Below are positions 46,078-54,882 of a stretch of DNA of 64,000 bases, piece after piece. The stretch is from Planctomycetota bacterium (GTDB lineage Bacteria; Planctomycetota; Phycisphaerae; UBA1845). The notes beneath the pieces are model-generated. The model saw only the letters and a program-made list of their open reading frames with translations, was not told the DNA's origin and ran no database searches. The position numbers and the translations under genes were made by a program. Location: NCBI GenBank assembly GCA_016208685.1, contig JACQXM010000015.1, positions 1-64,000 on the forward strand, written 5' to 3'. Numbering within the stretch: the stretch's first letter is position 1; each line of letters starts with the position of its first letter.

Positions 46078-49000
46078 CTAGCCGCCGGTTCCCAGTTGCG
46101 AAAGCGCGGCCAGCGAATTCTGCTGATCCTGAAGGGCGGCGAGCGAAGACTCCAGCGCCGCGAATTGCGCCTCCAGACGGGCGCGCTTGGCGTCCAGCAG
46201 CACGTTGAGTCGTCCGATCTGCTCCGCCAGAAGGTCCTTCTGATCCTGAAGGAGCTGCTCCTTGCGCGCGATGATTCCGTCGCCGTCGCGGGTTAGGTCG
46301 TCGAAGGCGCTTTGCACTACGGCCCCGAACCCGGTTCCTTCCGCGGTGAACAACCGCTCCACCTGCTCCGGCGAGTCGGCGTACACCTCGCGGAACTGCT
46401 CCTTGTCGAACGTCAAACGGTTGCCGGAGAATCGAACCCCGATGCCGCTGAGCCGGTTGAGCGAGCTCCCCGCGCCCTGAAACGTGCGCGCGGGCAGACG
46501 CGTCAGCCGCTCGCGCACCAGATTCACCGTCGCATCCCCGAACAGCGGACCACGCTCCAGCGTGTCGGCGTTGAAACTGATCGCCTCGTCGATCTGGGCC
46601 TGCGCGTCGTTGTAGCGATCCACGAAAGTCTGCACGCGCTCCACCAGTGCGTCGATGTCCTGAGCCACGGTCACCGTGACGTCCTCGTCGCCGGCGCCCA
46701 GTAGTTGAAGGGATACACCTTCGACCACGCCCTCCAGGGTGTTCGTGGGGCTGGAGACCACCAGCGGGCTGGCTCCGGCGCCGCCCAGCGTCACCACGGC
46801 GTCGCGCGCCTGGGACAGCGTCTCCAGGCCCAGGTCCAGCCCTTCGCCCACGAGCAGCAGTTCGCCCGGCCGGCCGGAGACCGACGAGGTGACGGTGAGG
46901 CTGAAAGGGTTCACGGCGCCGCCGGCGTTCACGACCGACGCGGAAAGCAGGCCCCCGGCAGCGTTGAGCTTGGCAGCGATATCCCGCAGCGTATCGGCGG
47001 CGCCGATGTCGATGCGCGTCTCCAGCGTGCCGTCGATGAAGGCCTCGCCGCTCCGCGCCGTCCCCGCAAGGCGCAGGTCGGCGGCGGCCCGTCCGCCCTC
47101 CTGGTCCTCGACCTTGAGCGCCGCGGTACCGCCGGCGCGGTCCACGAGCAGCAAACCGTCGCCGGTGTCGTTGATCCGCGCCTCGACGGCGCCCGAGGTT
47201 TGCAGGTTGATGACGTCCAGCACTTCGCCCACGGTCTTGAGGTTCGAGGCCAGCACCACGCTGTGCACCACTCCCGCGGAGTCGGTGATGCGGACGGTGC
47301 CCAGGCTTCCGGCGATCGCGGCGTTGATGTCCGTCAGTTTGCTTTGCCGGGAGATGTACTGAAGTTGCAGGTTCCCGCTGTCGGCCCGCGCCCCGGTTGC
47401 CCCGTCGAACGTCCCGGCAATGCCCAGGTCGGCGGCCAGCGTGCCGCCGACATCCGCGACCACGAGCGGACCCGTGCCCCGAGAGCCGTCGGAGAGCACG
47501 ATGCCGCTGCCCGTGCTGTTGATGGCGGCGGTCACCGAGGTGGCGGCGTCGGCATTGATCAGGTCGACGACGTCCTGGAGCGTTGCGGCCTGCGAAAAGT
47601 CGATGGTCGTTGACTGCCCCTGTCCGTCGGTGAGCGCCACCGAGCCGGCGCCAACGCCCCGCCCGCCATTCAGCGAGCGCAGCAGCACGGTGTTGAGTCC
47701 GCCCACCAGCCGGCGGGTCTGGAACGGTCCGCCGTCGGCGCTGAAGGCGGCGCCCGCCAGCCCCAGGTCGGCCGCGGTCGTCGATCCCTGCCCCGCCGAA
47801 ACCGTAACGTTGTTTCCCAGGCCTTGGGCCGCCAGCGTGATGCCCTTGCCGTCGTCGGAGATGCGCGCTCGCACGAAGTCGGCATTGCCCGCGGCGTAGT
47901 TGATGGCGTTGATCACGTCGCCCACGCTGGCCACGCGATACACGTCGCGTCCGCGGATGGCGTTGCTCTCCACGTCCGCGGCGATGCCCAGATCGGCGGC
48001 GGCGAACCCCTGCACGTCTTCCACGATGAAGTGCCCCGCGGTCGTGCCGCCGGCGTTGGTGTTGTCGGTGAGTTGAAAGGCGGAATTGGCCATGGCGATG
48101 CTCACCGAGACCCCGGCGGCCGTGGCGGAGTCGTTGATGCGGCGCCGAACGTCCTCGGCGGTGCGCACCGGCGCCTGGTTGGGGTCTGCAAGGTCGATCT
48201 CTACCGACTTGTGGTTGCGGTCCGTGATGCGGATTCTGCCCAGTCGCACGCCGTTGCCGCTGTTGAGGGCCCGCAGATCAGTGCTCGGCCGCAGGACATC
48301 GGTCAGCGCGACGCCGAAAGTCCCGAACGAGGTGGTGAACGTCAGGTCGTCGAGCGTGGAGCCAATCGCCTGCCGCCCGACGCCGTTCCCGTCGTTGAGC
48401 GCGGAAAGGAGCGTGGCGGGCGTGAGTCGGACCAGGTCGTGTCCGTCGATGCGTGCCCCCGCTGCGTTGGCTGCCAGCCCCAGGTCCCGCGCCGTAAAGC
48501 TGCCCGGCTTGTCGGCGATGATCAGATGGCCGCTTCCGCCGGAGGTGTCCTCGATGACGATGCGATCGCCGGTGGCGCCGTTTTCCGCCAGACCCGTCAC
48601 CCGGGCTCGGACGCCGACGCGGGTTTGAGTGTTGATGGCGGCGAGGATGTCTTCCACGGTGAAGGCCTTGGACAGGTCGACGTCCGCGGAGACGCCGCTA
48701 CGGTCCGTGATGGTAATCGTGCCGCGGCGCACGCCCTCACCGCCGTTAAGGGCCGCCAAGGGTGTCCCGCGATCCACCCGGCCGCGGCCCACCTCGATGG
48801 TGATGCGCCCCGTGCCCACGGGCGTGCGATCGGCGTCGGCATATCCGCGGCTGATGAGCGAATGGTTGGTCACCAGGGAATGCACGCGGAAGGTATGGCT
48901 GCCCGGCGTGGCCGACCGCGAGGCGGTGGCGGTTGCGATCGCCTCGTTGCTGCTCTTCACGGAAAAGCGCTGGAAGAAGGACGGGTCGTCGAAGTCCTTG

Positions 49001-49185
49001 ACCGATTCCTGGAGTGCCAGCAGCTTCCCGGAGAGTTCCAGGATGGCCGCCCGCTGGGTGTCGAGGTTCGTGGATCGCCGTTGCAGGTTCTGCACCGGCC
49101 GGGCTTCGATCGCCATGAGCTGCTCGATGAGCTTGGCGGTGTCGATCCCCGATATCAGCCCTATCCCGCTGGTTATGCCACTCAT
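46078..49185 (-). CDS. fliD: Flagellar hook-associated protein 2 (filament cap), repeat-expanded
   Basis: A 1035-residue FliD, about twice the common length. The N-terminus MSGITSGIGLISGIDTAKLI and the following coiled-coil helix are typical of FliD_N. The C-terminus has NTLEGVVEGVSLQLLGAGDE, FVDRYNDAQAQIDEA and a final long helix (EQIGRLNVLLDAKRARLEAQ), the FliD_C domain that docks on the filament. Between residues 143 and 708 are four to five copies of a unit of about 100 residues of LxALNxGxGVxxGxITITD...DVLxxIN...AADLGIA type, matching flagellin_IN repeats. No other flagellar gene is nearby. Confidence 0.88.
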   Translation of the reverse strand: MSGITSGIGLISGIDTAKLIEQLMAIEARPVQNLQRRSTNLDTQRAAILELSGKLLALQESVKDFDDPSFFQRFSVKSSNEAIATATASRSATPGSHTFRVHSLVTNHSLISRGYADADRTPVGTGRITIEVGRGRVDRGTPLAALNGGEGVRRGTITITDRSGVSADVDLSKAFTVEDILAAINTQTRVGVRARVTGLAENGATGDRIVIEDTSGGSGHLIIADKPGSFTARDLGLAANAAGARIDGHDLVRLTPATLLSALNDGNGVGRQAIGSTLDDLTFTTSFGTFGVALTDVLRPSTDLRALNSGNGVRLGRIRITDRNHKSVEIDLADPNQAPVRTAEDVRRRINDSATAAGVSVSIAMANSAFQLTDNTNAGGTTAGHFIVEDVQGFAAADLGIAADVESNAIRGRDVYRVASVGDVINAINYAAGNADFVRARISDDGKGITLAAQGLGNNVTVSAGQGSTTAADLGLAGAAFSADGGPFQTRRLVGGLNTVLLRSLNGGRGVGAGSVALTDGQGQSTTIDFSQAATLQDVVDLINADAATSVTAAINSTGSGIVLSDGSRGTGPLVVADVGGTLAADLGIAGTFDGATGARADSGNLQLQYISRQSKLTDINAAIAGSLGTVRITDSAGVVHSVVLASNLKTVGEVLDVINLQTSGAVEARINDTGDGLLLVDRAGGTAALKVEDQEGGRAAADLRLAGTARSGEAFIDGTLETRIDIGAADTLRDIAAKLNAAGGLLSASVVNAGGAVNPFSLTVTSSVSGRPGELLLVGEGLDLGLETLSQARDAVVTLGGAGASPLVVSSPTNTLEGVVEGVSLQLLGAGDEDVTVTVAQDIDALVERVQTFVDRYNDAQAQIDEAISFNADTLERGPLFGDATVNLVRERLTRLPARTFQGAGSSLNRLSGIGVRFSGNRLTFDKEQFREVYADSPEQVERLFTAEGTGFGAVVQSAFDDLTRDGDGIIARKEQLLQDQKDLLAEQIGRLNVLLDAKRARLEAQFAALESSLAALQDQQNSLAALSQLGTGG
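47062..48759 (-). repeat. Flagellin_IN-like repeats within fliD
   Basis: Residues 143-240, about 259-300 (partial), 304-403, 502-591 and 618-708 of the protein align to one another by their GxGVxxGxITITD, VEDILAAIN and AADLGIA blocks. Confidence 0.7.
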
Positions 49186-49498: not shown

Positions 49499-51178
49499 AT
49501 GATGGGAGCTTCGGCGACGCTGGCTTCGGTCACGGACATCGGCCTGTACATCAACCCGATCAAGGCGGCGGTGGTGGTGGTCCTGCTCTTTGCCTGGGCC
49601 GCCGCGGTGCAGTGGATCGACCGCGACACCGACAAGGTCAAGACTAAGCGCGAACATTGGAACATGATCGTGATGGCCGGCTCCTTCGTCGGCTTTCTCG
49701 TGCTCTTCATCCCCCCCTGGAGCGGCGTCCTGTTCGTCGGCGGCGTGATTGCCTGGCTGCTGATCACCGGGGGCGCGGTGGTCGCCTATGTGGTGCACCG
49801 CAACAGCCGCGTGGTTCCCGCGGCACGGGTACTTACGTTAACCCACTTCAAGCGGCTGGCGCGGGGCGGCGCCGATAAGAAGAAAGCCACCACCGACAAG
49901 GGCATCCGCGTGCGGCTGGCGGATCACAAGGGCAACGCGCTCGCGTCCCCGGAGGACCCCGACGAAGCGAAGTCGTTCAATCTGGTTCAGGACTTCCTTC
50001 ACGAACTCCTTTGGCGGCGGGCCTCGGATGCCGAGCTGCGCCCGGAGAAGGAGCGATACAGCCTCTTCTACCGCATCGACGGCGTCGAAACACCCAACAG
50101 TGAGGGCATCGCCACCGAGGACGGCGAACGGATCATCCGCTACCTGAAGCGCGCCGCGGGGGTGAACGTGGAGGAGATTCGCCGCCCACAGAGCGGGCGC
50201 ATACGCACGGCGCTGCTGAGTCACGCCGGGGATCTGGGCATCACCGAGGTTCGTACTTCGGGCAGCACGGCCGGAGAACGCCTGCAACTACAGCTTCAGG
50301 CTGGCGCATCGCTGCTGCGACTGCACGAATTGGGCATGGCGCCGCAGCGGCTGGAGGGCCTCAAGAAGGAGGTGCTCGCCAAGCACACCGGCCTGCTGCT
50401 GGTCAGCGCCCCACCGCAAAACGGGCTGACCACCACCCAGTACGCCATCCTGCGCGGGCATGACGCCTACATGCACAACATCCACACCATCGAGCGTCGC
50501 CGCCTGGTGGAACTGGACAACATCACGCAACAGATCTACGAAGGCAGCAACACCGACGTGAATTACGCCCGCATGCTGCAATCCATCCTGCGGCGCGAGC
50601 CGGATATCGTCATGGTAGGGGAATGCGAGGACCGCGAGACGGCGCAGATCGCCACCCGGGCCGCGGCGGACGACCGCAAGATCTACCTGGGCATCCCCGC
50701 CCGTGACAGCTTCGAGGCCCTCTCCAAGTACCTGACGCACGTGGAGGACAACGCCCTGGCCGCCAAGGCGCTGCGCGGCGTGCTCAACCAGCGGCTGGTG
50801 CGGATTCTGTGCCCCGAGTGTCGCGAGGCCTTCAAGCCGGACGAGGCGACCCTCAAGAAGCTCAACCTCCCCGCGGACAAGATCGAGAAGTTCTACCGGC
50901 CGCCGACGGAACCCAAGTTCGACAAAAAGGGCAAGCAGATTCTGTGTCCCAAGTGCCAGGGCACCGGTTACTCCGGCCGGGTGGGAATCTTCGAACTGCT
51001 GATCGTTGATCCCGCGGTCCAGGCGATGATCGCCGAGGGTGCGGCGGTGAACAAGGTGAAGGCGCAGTGCCGTAAGAACAAGATGTACTACCTTCAGGAA
51101 GAGGGACTGCTGAAGGTGATCGACGGCACCACCAGCATGCAGGAAATCCTCCGCTGCCTGAAGCTGGGGGAGAAGTGA
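49499..51178 (+). CDS. Membrane-tethered GspE/PilB-like protein with degenerate ATPase motifs
   Basis: A 559-residue protein. It starts with three hydrophobic segments (IKAAVVVVLLFAWAAAV, MIVMAGSFVGFLVLFI, GVLFVGGVIAWLLITGG), whereas GspE/PilB ATPases are normally soluble. The rest aligns with the secretion ATPase core. Walker A is SAPPQNGLTTTQYA where GPTGSGKTTTLYA is usual, so the lysine is Leu. The Asp box TIEDP is TIERR, and the His box (LHTN) is replaced by LGIPARDS. Walker B (DIVMVGECEDRETA) and the tetracysteine zinc motif (CPEC...CPKC) are kept. ATP hydrolysis is therefore doubtful. The next gene is a CvpA-like membrane protein. Confidence 0.85.
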   Translation: MMGASATLASVTDIGLYINPIKAAVVVVLLFAWAAAVQWIDRDTDKVKTKREHWNMIVMAGSFVGFLVLFIPPWSGVLFVGGVIAWLLITGGAVVAYVVHRNSRVVPAARVLTLTHFKRLARGGADKKKATTDKGIRVRLADHKGNALASPEDPDEAKSFNLVQDFLHELLWRRASDAELRPEKERYSLFYRIDGVETPNSEGIATEDGERIIRYLKRAAGVNVEEIRRPQSGRIRTALLSHAGDLGITEVRTSGSTAGERLQLQLQAGASLLRLHELGMAPQRLEGLKKEVLAKHTGLLLVSAPPQNGLTTTQYAILRGHDAYMHNIHTIERRRLVELDNITQQIYEGSNTDVNYARMLQSILRREPDIVMVGECEDRETAQIATRAAADDRKIYLGIPARDSFEALSKYLTHVEDNALAAKALRGVLNQRLVRILCPECREAFKPDEATLKKLNLPADKIEKFYRPPTEPKFDKKGKQILCPKCQGTGYSGRVGIFELLIVDPAVQAMIAEGAAVNKVKAQCRKNKMYYLQEEGLLKVIDGTTSMQEILRCLKLGEK

Positions 51179-51254: not shown

Positions 51255-53123
51255 ATGTGGCTATCGCTGCTGATGCTGGTGCTGGTGCTCGGCGTCGCCT
51301 TCTTTCAGTCGACGCTGGGGTTCTTCAGCGCTCTGATCATGACGGTGCTGACCCTGTGTTGCGCCGCCGCCGCCGTGGGCACGCACGAATGGGTGGCCAT
51401 CAACTGGCTGGCGCCCCTGTGGAAGCCGGACTTCGCCCACGCCATCGCCCTGGCGGCGATCTTCGGCGTGCCGCTGATTGCCTTCCGTTTCACCTTCGAT
51501 CAGCTCATACGCCGCGCCTGCCTGCTTCCGGCATGGGTGGACCGCATCGGCGGCGCCTTCTGCGGCATCATCACCGCGCTCACCCTGGTGGGGGTCATGG
51601 CGCACGCCCTGCAAGCCGTGCCTTTCGGCACCACGATCCTGGGCTTCGCCCGCGTAGAGGTTCCCGCAAAAACCCAGCCGGAGGGCGGTGATCCGCCCAA
51701 ACCGCCGGATGTGGCGGCGCCGGAGCGGGAACTTTGGCTTTCCCCCGACCGTTTCGCGATCGGCGTCGCCTCGCTGCTTTCGTCGGGGGTGTTCAGCGGA
51801 GACAAGCTGCTCGCCGCCGAGAACCCCGACCCGGTGCAGGCGCTGGGGTGGGTGAACACCACTCACCCCGAGGTGTCGCGCGTGGCGCAGCCCAACTCCA
51901 TCGCCGTGGTGCGTTCCGGCGTGGTGTCGTACGTCTATCACTACACGGAAGGCGACCCGCGGCGCGGGGAACAGACCAAGTACGACGCCGTATCACCCAA
52001 GGCCGGGCACGAGTTCCGCATGTTGCGCGTGGCCCTTCGCGACGAAGCGCGGGATGCGCGCAAGTCGCACGTCTTCACCATCCGTCAGTTCCGCCTGGTC
52101 GGCACCCAAGGGCCCGACGGCCCCCTGGCGCAGTACTTCCCTACCGCCATCCAGCAGGAGGACGCCACGCAGACCACCAACCGTCACATCTGCACCAAGA
52201 TGACGAACTGGGGCAAGTGGCCGGTGGTCGACGAGATCTACGCGCCGCGCGACGAATCCAACGAGGTCGAGGTCGTGTACGAACTCCCCACCGCCTTCAA
52301 GCCCATGTACCTCGAGTACAAGCGCGGGGCGCGGTTCGCGCTGGCGTCGTTTGACATCAAGAGCCGCGACGCGGGGAACCGTCCCAGTGCGGGCGAGACA
52401 GAGACGCCGCATGGCGGAACCACTGCGGCTGCCGGGCAGCCCGCCGGCGGCTCCGCAGCGCCGGCACCGGCTCCGGCGCCACCCCCGGACCGCCGGCGCC
52501 GGCGCGGCGAGCCCGAGACCGTGCCCACCACCGGCTCCGGCGGCGTGCGCCCCGTCCGGGCGCAGACCGGCGGGTCGACGTTCGGCGACGAACTGCCGCT
52601 GACGCTTACCTCGTACCGGTCGCTGAAGGACCTTAACCTGGAGAAGGGCAAACTCGGTACCGGCCACCTGGTCGCCATGCTGGACGAGCAGGATGGCGGC
52701 ACGCAGCCGCCGGTCAGCCACTTCGCCGTCCCCGCCGACAAGCGGCTGCTCCAGCTCAGCGTAAGCCGCATGCAGGCCAAGAGCGGCATCGGCAAGGTGC
52801 TGGACCTCGCCGCCACCACGGCGCAGTCCTACTTCGTGCAGGACACCAACGGCACGCGCTACTCGATGATCGGCAAGTACGTGCGCGCCACCGTCGAGGG
52901 CGTCCCCATGCTGGAAGTGCAGTATTTCCCCGAACAGGCGGGTTCGATCGGCGGGCTGGGGCCGTTCCAGGACATCAAGGACCGCCATCTGCAAAGCGGC
53001 GAGTACGATTACGTGCTGCTCTTCCTGGTAGATCCCGGGGCCAATATCGTGACCCTCGCCGCCGGCGGGTCTGCTGCCCGCCAGGACGACCTGAGCGGCG
53101 AGAACCTCACCGCGCCGCCGTGA
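51255..53123 (+). CDS. CvpA-like membrane protein with large C-terminal domain
   Basis: A 622-residue protein. The first 125 residues contain four membrane helices in the CvpA layout (LLMLVLVLGVAFFQS, ALIMTVLTLCCAAAAV, AIALAAIFGVPLIAF, FCGIITALTLVGVMAHAL). A proline-rich linker and a region of about 450 residues follow, including an Ala/Pro/Gly-rich spacer near 390-425, and no known catalytic motif. The C-terminal half is predicted outside the membrane bilayer helices. It starts 76 bp after the GspE-like gene on the same strand, so an operon is likely. Function unknown. Confidence 0.7.
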   Translation: MWLSLLMLVLVLGVAFFQSTLGFFSALIMTVLTLCCAAAAVGTHEWVAINWLAPLWKPDFAHAIALAAIFGVPLIAFRFTFDQLIRRACLLPAWVDRIGGAFCGIITALTLVGVMAHALQAVPFGTTILGFARVEVPAKTQPEGGDPPKPPDVAAPERELWLSPDRFAIGVASLLSSGVFSGDKLLAAENPDPVQALGWVNTTHPEVSRVAQPNSIAVVRSGVVSYVYHYTEGDPRRGEQTKYDAVSPKAGHEFRMLRVALRDEARDARKSHVFTIRQFRLVGTQGPDGPLAQYFPTAIQQEDATQTTNRHICTKMTNWGKWPVVDEIYAPRDESNEVEVVYELPTAFKPMYLEYKRGARFALASFDIKSRDAGNRPSAGETETPHGGTTAAAGQPAGGSAAPAPAPAPPPDRRRRRGEPETVPTTGSGGVRPVRAQTGGSTFGDELPLTLTSYRSLKDLNLEKGKLGTGHLVAMLDEQDGGTQPPVSHFAVPADKRLLQLSVSRMQAKSGIGKVLDLAATTAQSYFVQDTNGTRYSMIGKYVRATVEGVPMLEVQYFPEQAGSIGGLGPFQDIKDRHLQSGEYDYVLLFLVDPGANIVTLAAGGSAARQDDLSGENLTAPP

Positions 53124-53168: not shown

Positions 53169-53384
53169 CTACGGTTCGATGAGCCGCTCGCGAATCGCCC
53201 AACGCGTCAACAGAGCGAGATTGGTCAAGCCCAGCTTCCGCGCCGCCTGCTGGCGGTGCGTCTCGGCCGTCCGCGGCGAAATCGACAATCGGCGGGCAAT
53301 GTCGGCCAGCGAGTGACCCTCCGCCAGCATGCGAACCACCTGAAGCTGGCGGGGTGTCAAATCCGGCAGTTTTTTCCCTTGCAC
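53169..53384 (-). CDS. Minimal LuxR/GerE-type transcription regulator
   Basis: A 71-residue protein that is almost only a LuxR-type helix-turn-helix: LTPRQLQVVRMLAEGHSLADIARRLSISPRTAETHR and a dimerisation helix. The GTG at 53384 is chosen over TTG 53429 because GGAGGT precedes it by six bases. No receiver or ligand domain is present, so its activity is not obviously gated by phosphorylation. It lies 163 bp downstream of the diguanylate cyclase gene on the same strand, with an AT-rich dyad between. Confidence 0.85.
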   Translation of the reverse strand: MQGKKLPDLTPRQLQVVRMLAEGHSLADIARRLSISPRTAETHRQQAARKLGLTNLALLTRWAIRERLIEP

Positions 53385-53468
53385 CCGGGCACCTCCCGAA
53401 CAGCGCGCACCTCGCGCGCCAATGTTCAAGAACGATGTCTGTGCGCGAGGCGCGCGCGAAATCTCTCT

Positions 53469-53547: not shown

Positions 53548-54882
53548 CTACGCGGCACAAGGAGCCACGGAATTCCTTCCTAGCTTCTTGGCGCGGTACA
53601 GGGCCTCGTCCGCCCGGGCGAGGAGCTCGGCGGCGGTGACGGCGGACGCGGTCTTTAGAGAGGCAACTCCTGCGCTCATCGACGGAGGACGCTCGGTGCC
53701 CAGCGTCGAGGTGTATTGCTTGAACAGCCGGATGATGCGTTCCGCCACTTCGCCGGCCTGCTGACCTCCAGCGCCGGGAAGCACGAGCAGGAACTCGTCG
53801 CCTCCGTAGCGAATGGCATGGTCCATAGGCCGCGTGGCCCCGCGAAGCAGTTCGCCGATGAACGCCAGCACTTCGTCGCCCGCCTGGTGCCCCTGGGTAT
53901 CGTTGTGGTGTTTGAAATGATCGACATCAATCATGACCACCGCCAGGTCTTCCATGCGCGCCCGCTGGGCGGCGATTAGCGACTCGAGCTCGCGGTCCAG
54001 GAAGGCTCGGTTGCGCAGCTTCGTGAGCGGGTCGATGGTGGCTTGCTCCCGCGCGCGGCGAAGCTGGCGATCGAAGCCCGCTTCGCGTTCGCGGAGCTGC
54101 CACTGGGCATCGCGCTCAACCCTCGCGGCCCGGGCCGAAGCCAGTGCAAGATCGTGTGCCAGCGTCCGAAGCTGCTCCTCTGCGGCGGCCAGCTCCCGGA
54201 GCTGTCGTGTGGACTGGGCCGCGCCGTCCTGCTCCGCAGGGTCGCCACCCCAATTCCCTGCCACCCGACGCACGGGATCGGACAACCATTGCAGCGGCGC
54301 GGCGATCCTCCGATCGCACCACCGCCGGAGGGTCGCCGCTGCCACGGCGAGCGCCAACCACACACTCATCGCTCCGGCGCCCGCCGCCCAGAGAGAGGCC
54401 TCGAGCGATGAATCAGAACGGAGCAGCACCACAACCTGCCGCGGGACCAGCGACTGCGGTCCGTCCAGTGGAACCGCCAGGGCTCCCACTGGCTGGAGAA
54501 CGCCCAATACCGGCGCTGTGGCCGTGACTACCTCGCCCTTGGATTGGAGTGCCTGCGCGGCGGCCGCGCGATACGACGGATCGTCGGGGTACACGGCTCG
54601 GACCTCGCCCGCGGCCGTCAGTTCGGCGACGGCGACGAGCCGATCGAAGGTGGCGCGGAGCTCGTCCACGGCCTCCGCCAGCCCGCCCGCGGGGGCCTCG
54701 CGCAAAACCGCAGCGCTGATACGCGCCTGCTCGGCGACGTAGGCGGCCGATTGCCGCTGCTGCAGCTCATGATTGATGACGCCGAAGGCGATGCCGCCCG
54801 CAAGAGCGACTGCCCAGTTCCGTCGGCGCAAGGCGTCGCGAAACGCCGCTTCCAGAGTTGGCAGGGCGTCGGAGGCAGGCAA
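53548..54882 (-). CDS. Membrane-bound diguanylate cyclase (GGDEF)
   Basis: A 444-residue signalling enzyme that makes cyclic di-GMP from two GTP. Two membrane helices (AVALAGGIAFGVINHEL and AAGAGAMSVWLALAVAAATL) flank an extracytoplasmic segment of about 110 residues, then a helical linker leads to the GGDEF domain. Active-site signature is RYGGDEFLLVLP; DVDHFKHHNDTQGH is the nucleotide-binding segment. The inhibitory I-site RxxD (RPMD) is five residues before GGDEF, so product inhibition is likely. The TTG at 54882 has GGAGA upstream. Confidence 0.92.
   Translation of the reverse strand: MPASDALPTLEAAFRDALRRRNWAVALAGGIAFGVINHELQQRQSAAYVAEQARISAAVLREAPAGGLAEAVDELRATFDRLVAVAELTAAGEVRAVYPDDPSYRAAAAQALQSKGEVVTATAPVLGVLQPVGALAVPLDGPQSLVPRQVVVLLRSDSSLEASLWAAGAGAMSVWLALAVAAATLRRWCDRRIAAPLQWLSDPVRRVAGNWGGDPAEQDGAAQSTRQLRELAAAEEQLRTLAHDLALASARAARVERDAQWQLREREAGFDRQLRRAREQATIDPLTKLRNRAFLDRELESLIAAQRARMEDLAVVMIDVDHFKHHNDTQGHQAGDEVLAFIGELLRGATRPMDHAIRYGGDEFLLVLPGAGGQQAGEVAERIIRLFKQYTSTLGTERPPSMSAGVASLKTASAVTAAELLARADEALYRAKKLGRNSVAPCAA

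Follow-up and report, generated by a model that had tools for sequence, protein, structure and literature searches.

The window, a stretch of 64,000 nucleotides from a bacterium of the Planctomycetota class Phycisphaerae, carries on its forward strand an ATG-started open reading frame (49499..51178) for a 559-aa protein that combines three N-terminal membrane segments with a Pfam T2SSE domain, hereafter the 3TM protein. Upstream, on the opposite strand, lies fliD (46078-49185), the product of which is unusually long (1035 aa) and contains at least three LNxGxGVxxGxIxITD-type repeats between its N- and C-terminal domains. Downstream, in the same direction as the 3TM gene, a 622-aa CvpA-like protein is encoded (51255..53123), with four helices predicted by hydropathy and a large C-terminal domain predicted to be extracytoplasmic. 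Two genes on the reverse strand follow: an 86-aa open reading frame (53169-53429) that encodes little besides a DNA-binding domain of the LuxR (GerE) type, receiver and sensor domains being absent, and, antisense and just past the CvpA-like and small LuxR-type genes, a gene for a GGDEF protein of the diguanylate cyclase type (53548-54882).

The T2SSE profile (PF00437) matched residues 156-552 of the 559-aa protein at 170 bits (cut-off 24.9), which by the curated threshold makes it a member of the GspE/PilB superfamily, and its nearest solved relatives by sequence are Thermus PilF, Vibrio GspE and PilB. In profile searches it did not reach the equivalog thresholds of either GspE (TIGR02533, 229 versus 630 bits) or PilB (TIGR02538, 192 versus 676 bits), and the best match of TIGR02533 to the 38 members of alignment A1 was only E 1.2e-71. 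Hydropathy analysis placed three membrane segments before residue 96, all encoded on the forward strand. Helix 1 (about residues 20-39, 49556..49615, boundary approximate) combines a weak hydropathy peak at residues 11-29 (1.62) with a conserved hydrophobic block, which ends in W-[IV]-D-x-D when intact and dead members are aligned. It is followed by helix 2 (residues 56-74, 49664..49720, hydropathy 1.97) and helix 3 (residues 77-95, 49727..49783, hydropathy 2.35), the latter leading into a conserved Y..xRN motif with Y and N invariant in alignment A2. Basic residues follow helix 1 (in the loop) and helix 3, so that the N terminus is predicted to face out and the C terminus in, with the ATPase-like part in the cytoplasm.

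A preliminary description of the locus had proposed that the three helices stand in for the soluble N-terminal domain. The helices were borne out by hydropathy, but the replacement concerns only the N1-type domain: matches to GspE, PilB and PilF begin at residues 141-156, indicating that the N2-type domain is kept (about residues 152-290, 49952..50368, forward strand, by alignment to the PilF/GspE structures from residues 147-162 onwards). Profile searches of the 559-aa protein gave no match to an N1/MshEN-type domain, which in some GspE/PilB relatives binds c-di-GMP. Thus, the 3TM protein shares with GspE/PilB (PF00437; TIGR02533, TIGR02538) the N2-type domain, the ATPase-type core, the tetracysteine insertion and the C-terminal domain, and differs from them in having three N-terminal helices in place of N1 and in lacking the Walker A Lys, the Asp box and the His box.

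In this ATPase family, ATP binding depends on Walker A and hydrolysis on the Walker B Glu (PMC6762196), and arginine fingers are supplied by the N2 domain (PMC9765406). We compared 73 distinct proteins of the class with 25 intact proteins (19 intact 3TM proteins and the six PilB/GspE paralogues of the window's own genome) at the positions that are invariant in the intact set; percentages refer to the 73 class proteins, with window-protein numbering and the residue letter of the intact set. In the P-loop APPQNGLTT (50408..50434, forward strand, as are all motifs below), Gly309 is kept in 73/73 class proteins, the following S/T is also retained, and the Lys has given way to Leu310, just as the preliminary description had read it. 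Lys was found at this position in 0/73 class proteins and, once ten further class members, all likewise without it, had been added, in 0/83, leaving no member with the Walker A pattern GxxxxGK[ST]; a loss in all 83 is far beyond chance. Nine residues (L, V, I, R, M, T, A, Q and G) occupy the Lys position instead, the variation expected if the site is functionless.

At the Asp-box position, TIERR (50486..50500), Glu332 is kept (96%) and D333 is replaced by Arg, with loss of the Asp-Pro pair (D333 4%, P334 1%); at the His-box position (50669..50707), both canonical His are absent, with R393 and P400 in their place (His 0% at 393 and 5% at 400). Both motifs thus match the earlier reading of a TIERR Asp box and a missing His box. 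Most N2 arginines are also gone in the class; the N2 positions lost include H179 (0%) and R190 (1%), and R250 (11%) and R377 (7%) are rare as well. The Walker B Glu, previously listed as retained, is indeed present in the window copy (Glu375, in EPDIVMVGECED, 50597..50632), but it does not hold for the family, being variable and found in 33/74 Lys-less proteins and in 45% of class members. Outside these positions the protein is well preserved, with D194, R228, L433, R435, E549 and R552 at 100% and K217 at 99%. The zinc tetracysteine was likewise described correctly: its halves C438 and C441 (50810..50821) and C483 and C486 (50945..50956) are present in 100% of the 73 class proteins. It is partly lost, in the C438/C441 half, in three of the ten class members added later; the Lys-less proteins L215, L216 and L221 (genomes G093, G061 and G154) lack some of the zinc-binding cysteines, decay having gone further in one genus. 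The losses common to the class are confined to the nucleotide site, and the P-loop glycine, the zinc cysteines and the C-terminal residues are retained.

A nucleotide site stripped in this way might still work as a sensor or regulator that binds ATP/ADP or c-di-GMP without hydrolysis and, through its binding state, controls the CvpA-like protein or canonical pili. Such a role would fit the retention of the P-loop Gly309 (100%), the next S/T and Glu332 (96%), and five relatives that keep the Lys without the Walker B Glu or the His-box His suggest that binding may outlive hydrolysis. It is made unlikely by the disappearance from the class of the Lys, both box His, the Asp-box Asp and most N2 arginines, together with the lack of any N1/MshEN-type match in the 559-aa protein.

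Next, we examined the distribution of the protein across Planctomycetota genomes, to which all comparisons here refer. We searched 59 relatives plus the window's own genome, 60 in all, and nearly all yielded an orthologue of full or almost full length; the exceptions were G019, G026 and G047, with paralogue-level scores only, and two genomes with fragments at contig ends. A profile of the 3TM domain alone found exactly one copy in each of 40/40 other sampled genomes of the class, and a single-protein scan of named genomes yielded ten loci, in metagenome-assembled genomes titled Phycisphaerae, Phycisphaerales or Planctomycetota. Internal stops were not found in the orthologues of relatives, and dN/dS, as a simple NG86 estimate on close pairs with high dS in several, was 0.03-0.15 for Lys-less pairs versus 0.02-0.08 for intact pairs. 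That the window holds a decaying pseudogene or a sequencing error has a negligible probability, given an orthologue in 40/40 other class genomes, the intact frames of the relatives and dN/dS values far below 1; these findings rule out such a local fault. An oddity of the window's own family was also ruled out, as the Lys-less state spans the class. On the sequences compared, the predicted dead state is a natural one, fixed in the whole class Phycisphaerae.

Purifying selection about equal to that on intact members would also be expected of an active NTPase with an unusual P-loop, and the window copy does have both Glu332 and Glu375. We consider this reading highly improbable, however: nine residues alternate at the Lys position, the Walker B Glu is variable and there is no His box, and such free variation at catalytic positions is unfit for an alternative catalytic site. 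Together, single-copy orthologues throughout the class, purifying selection and losses confined to the nucleotide site strongly support the status of a retained pseudo-ATPase, as opposed to decay, that had been put forward for this protein from the window alone.

Members of the same family outside the class bear on how this state arose. The preliminary description had also called for the same substitutions to be sought in planctomycete homologues, and had held that intact homologues would point to a local error. The Lys is absent from 83/83 class members and from 20 of the 50 3TM proteins of other Planctomycetota classes; of the remainder, 25 are intact, as scored at three positions (Walker A Lys, Walker B Glu and His-box His), and five keep the Lys but are otherwise degenerate. 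Intact homologues thus occur in other classes and none was found in the window's class, a distribution that argues for loss of an ancestral function and not for error. The intact 3TM-GspE proteins (for example, families f39, f46, f60, f108, f109 and f110) share the 3TM domain and mostly the operon with the window protein, and differ from it in having all ATPase motifs present and, mostly, a short CvpA partner. In trees built without the motif columns, which were quick, lacked bootstrap and contained some long branches, all 3TM proteins formed one clade apart from the six own-genome PilB/GspE paralogues (99-100% SH-aLRT), and the window's class formed one clade within the set (98-100%). Rooting on the PilB/GspE paralogues makes the intact state ancestral, and since other parts of the phylum have intact orthologues, the ancestor was probably a working ATPase. 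The tree asks for two losses of the Lys, although a single Lys-less clade was not rejected (AU p 0.51; p 0.74); the co-occurrence of Lys-less and intact proteins within one other class favours more than one loss, or else transfer.

Clustering of neighbouring genes found only two recurring partners, a PilT-family ATPase upstream and a CvpA-like protein downstream, with the 3TM gene between them in a conserved unit of three, PilT > 3TM > CvpA. Among 97 loci, 62 have both partners, 29 CvpA only, five PilT only and one neither, counts that are lower bounds since some loci end near the genes; the CvpA-like gene lies directly downstream in 91/97. Recurrence is limited to these two partners, which rules out a conserved link to the antisense fliD or to other neighbours in the window. 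At one relative's locus (L054:6990-8730, genome G050), an intact PilB-type ATPase with an FHA-like N terminus lies between the PilT and dead 3TM genes, in the same direction.

All of the adjacent PilT proteins checked (50/50) have an intact Walker A, Asp box and Walker B, and H278 is invariant in their alignment (A3). Upstream candidates that had resembled paralogues of the 3TM protein proved to be this PilT partner. PilT is not adjacent in the window, nor in about 30 of the 97 loci; in the window's genome the orthologue lies elsewhere (G000:C6:213054-214142) and scores 398 bits against TIGR01420 (PilT/PilU), above the curated cut-off of 319. The same genome encodes a further PilT-like protein in a 679-aa open frame (L010, G000:C42:7131-7985) with 401 bits to the operon-type PilT profile and the P-loop GVTGCGKS. 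Because PilT-like proteins occur in 358/392 genomes of the phylum, we dropped the partner as a presence/absence marker. The PilT lineage is also found without a 3TM neighbour in other classes, from which it would follow that PilT can act without the 3TM protein.

The window's CvpA-like protein scored 17.2 bits with the Colicin_V profile (PF02674), below the cut-off of 29.3, and the best orthologues at the same position scored 32.8-37.4 bits. These proteins share with CvpA/Colicin_V (PF02674; PMC6705877) a four-helix CvpA-type region, found here in the third gene of the unit, and differ by the large extra C-terminal domain in the window's class and by having members both above and below the Pfam cut-off. 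The CvpA partner is roughly 190-300 aa long in most other classes; in the window's class most are about 550-650 aa, although some families have 350-370 aa. Enteric CvpA is an inner-membrane protein needed for deoxycholate resistance by an unknown mechanism (PMC6705877), and therefore gives no firm clue to the role of the unit.

Two genomes of one family, G333 and G412, give no match to the 3TM profile. Beside PilT they encode a Lys-less protein of 442-449 aa that lacks the helices, and CvpA is missing downstream. Because the helices and CvpA are absent jointly, they would appear to form one pair, and PilT and the soluble dead protein, which persist side by side, another.

Candidate components of a canonical type IV pilus machine are encoded in the window's genome too: six PilB/GspE proteins in which the Walker A, Walker B and His motifs are intact, and four or more T2SSF platform proteins. 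In the relative L054 an intact PilB sits inside the operon. One alternative is that the 3TM protein joins the PilB/PilC machine as an inactive subunit, capping or inhibiting it, and has no relation to its operon partners. We find this improbable, as its conserved neighbours are PilT and CvpA only; neighbour clustering showed no pilin, PilC or secretin travelling with the 3TM gene.

We favour instead, at a probability of about 0.6, the reading that the 3TM protein is an old GspE/PilB superfamily member, anchored in the membrane, that had already lost ATP hydrolysis in the class ancestor and has been kept as a structural part that couples PilT. The dead protein would assemble into a ring like that of PilB, with its three helices fixing it to the inner membrane, and this ring could serve as a docking and coupling element for an intact PilT-type motor. 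The ring may then pass the movement or the nucleotide state of the motor to the CvpA-like protein, the large outer domain of which is expanded in the window's class. We infer this coupling role at the inner membrane from motifs and genetic context; the scaffold or regulator role considered earlier is compatible with the conserved operon of an intact PilT and a CvpA-like protein. The operon, its partner genes and the intact relatives are additions to the preliminary description.

That a dead ring can enable a second ATPase has an established precedent in the PilT/PilU pair of type IVa pili: in Vibrio cholerae, PilU, which depends on PilT, can still drive retraction when that PilT is Walker-dead (PMC6762196). 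By analogy, one ring may lack ATPase function beside a second ATPase, and a PilT-family gene is an operon partner of the 3TM protein too. The two cases differ in that the dead ring of PilT/PilU was made by mutation, whereas the 3TM protein is naturally dead over a whole class, and in that the dead member in Planctomycetota is PilB/GspE-like and membrane-anchored. More tentatively, and with some doubt on our part, PilT, the 3TM pseudo-PilB and CvpA might constitute an independent inner-membrane motor module of Planctomycetota, outside any pilus or secretion system, in which the PilT-type ATPase drives or gates the CvpA-type protein via the dead PilB ring. In our literature search, in which most subscription journals lay outside coverage, no paper on the PilT/dead 3TM/CvpA arrangement was found.

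Secretion and pilus ATPases are usually viewed as engines, and to our knowledge catalytically dead ones have been studied mostly as made mutants. The 3TM protein suggests that what was once an engine may have become a fixed component of some larger machine. Its genetic context links the widespread membrane protein CvpA to a PilT-type motor, and since the phylum also offers intact and half-lost relatives, most of them with the same operon, the role of the ring besides ATP hydrolysis may be asked about directly.
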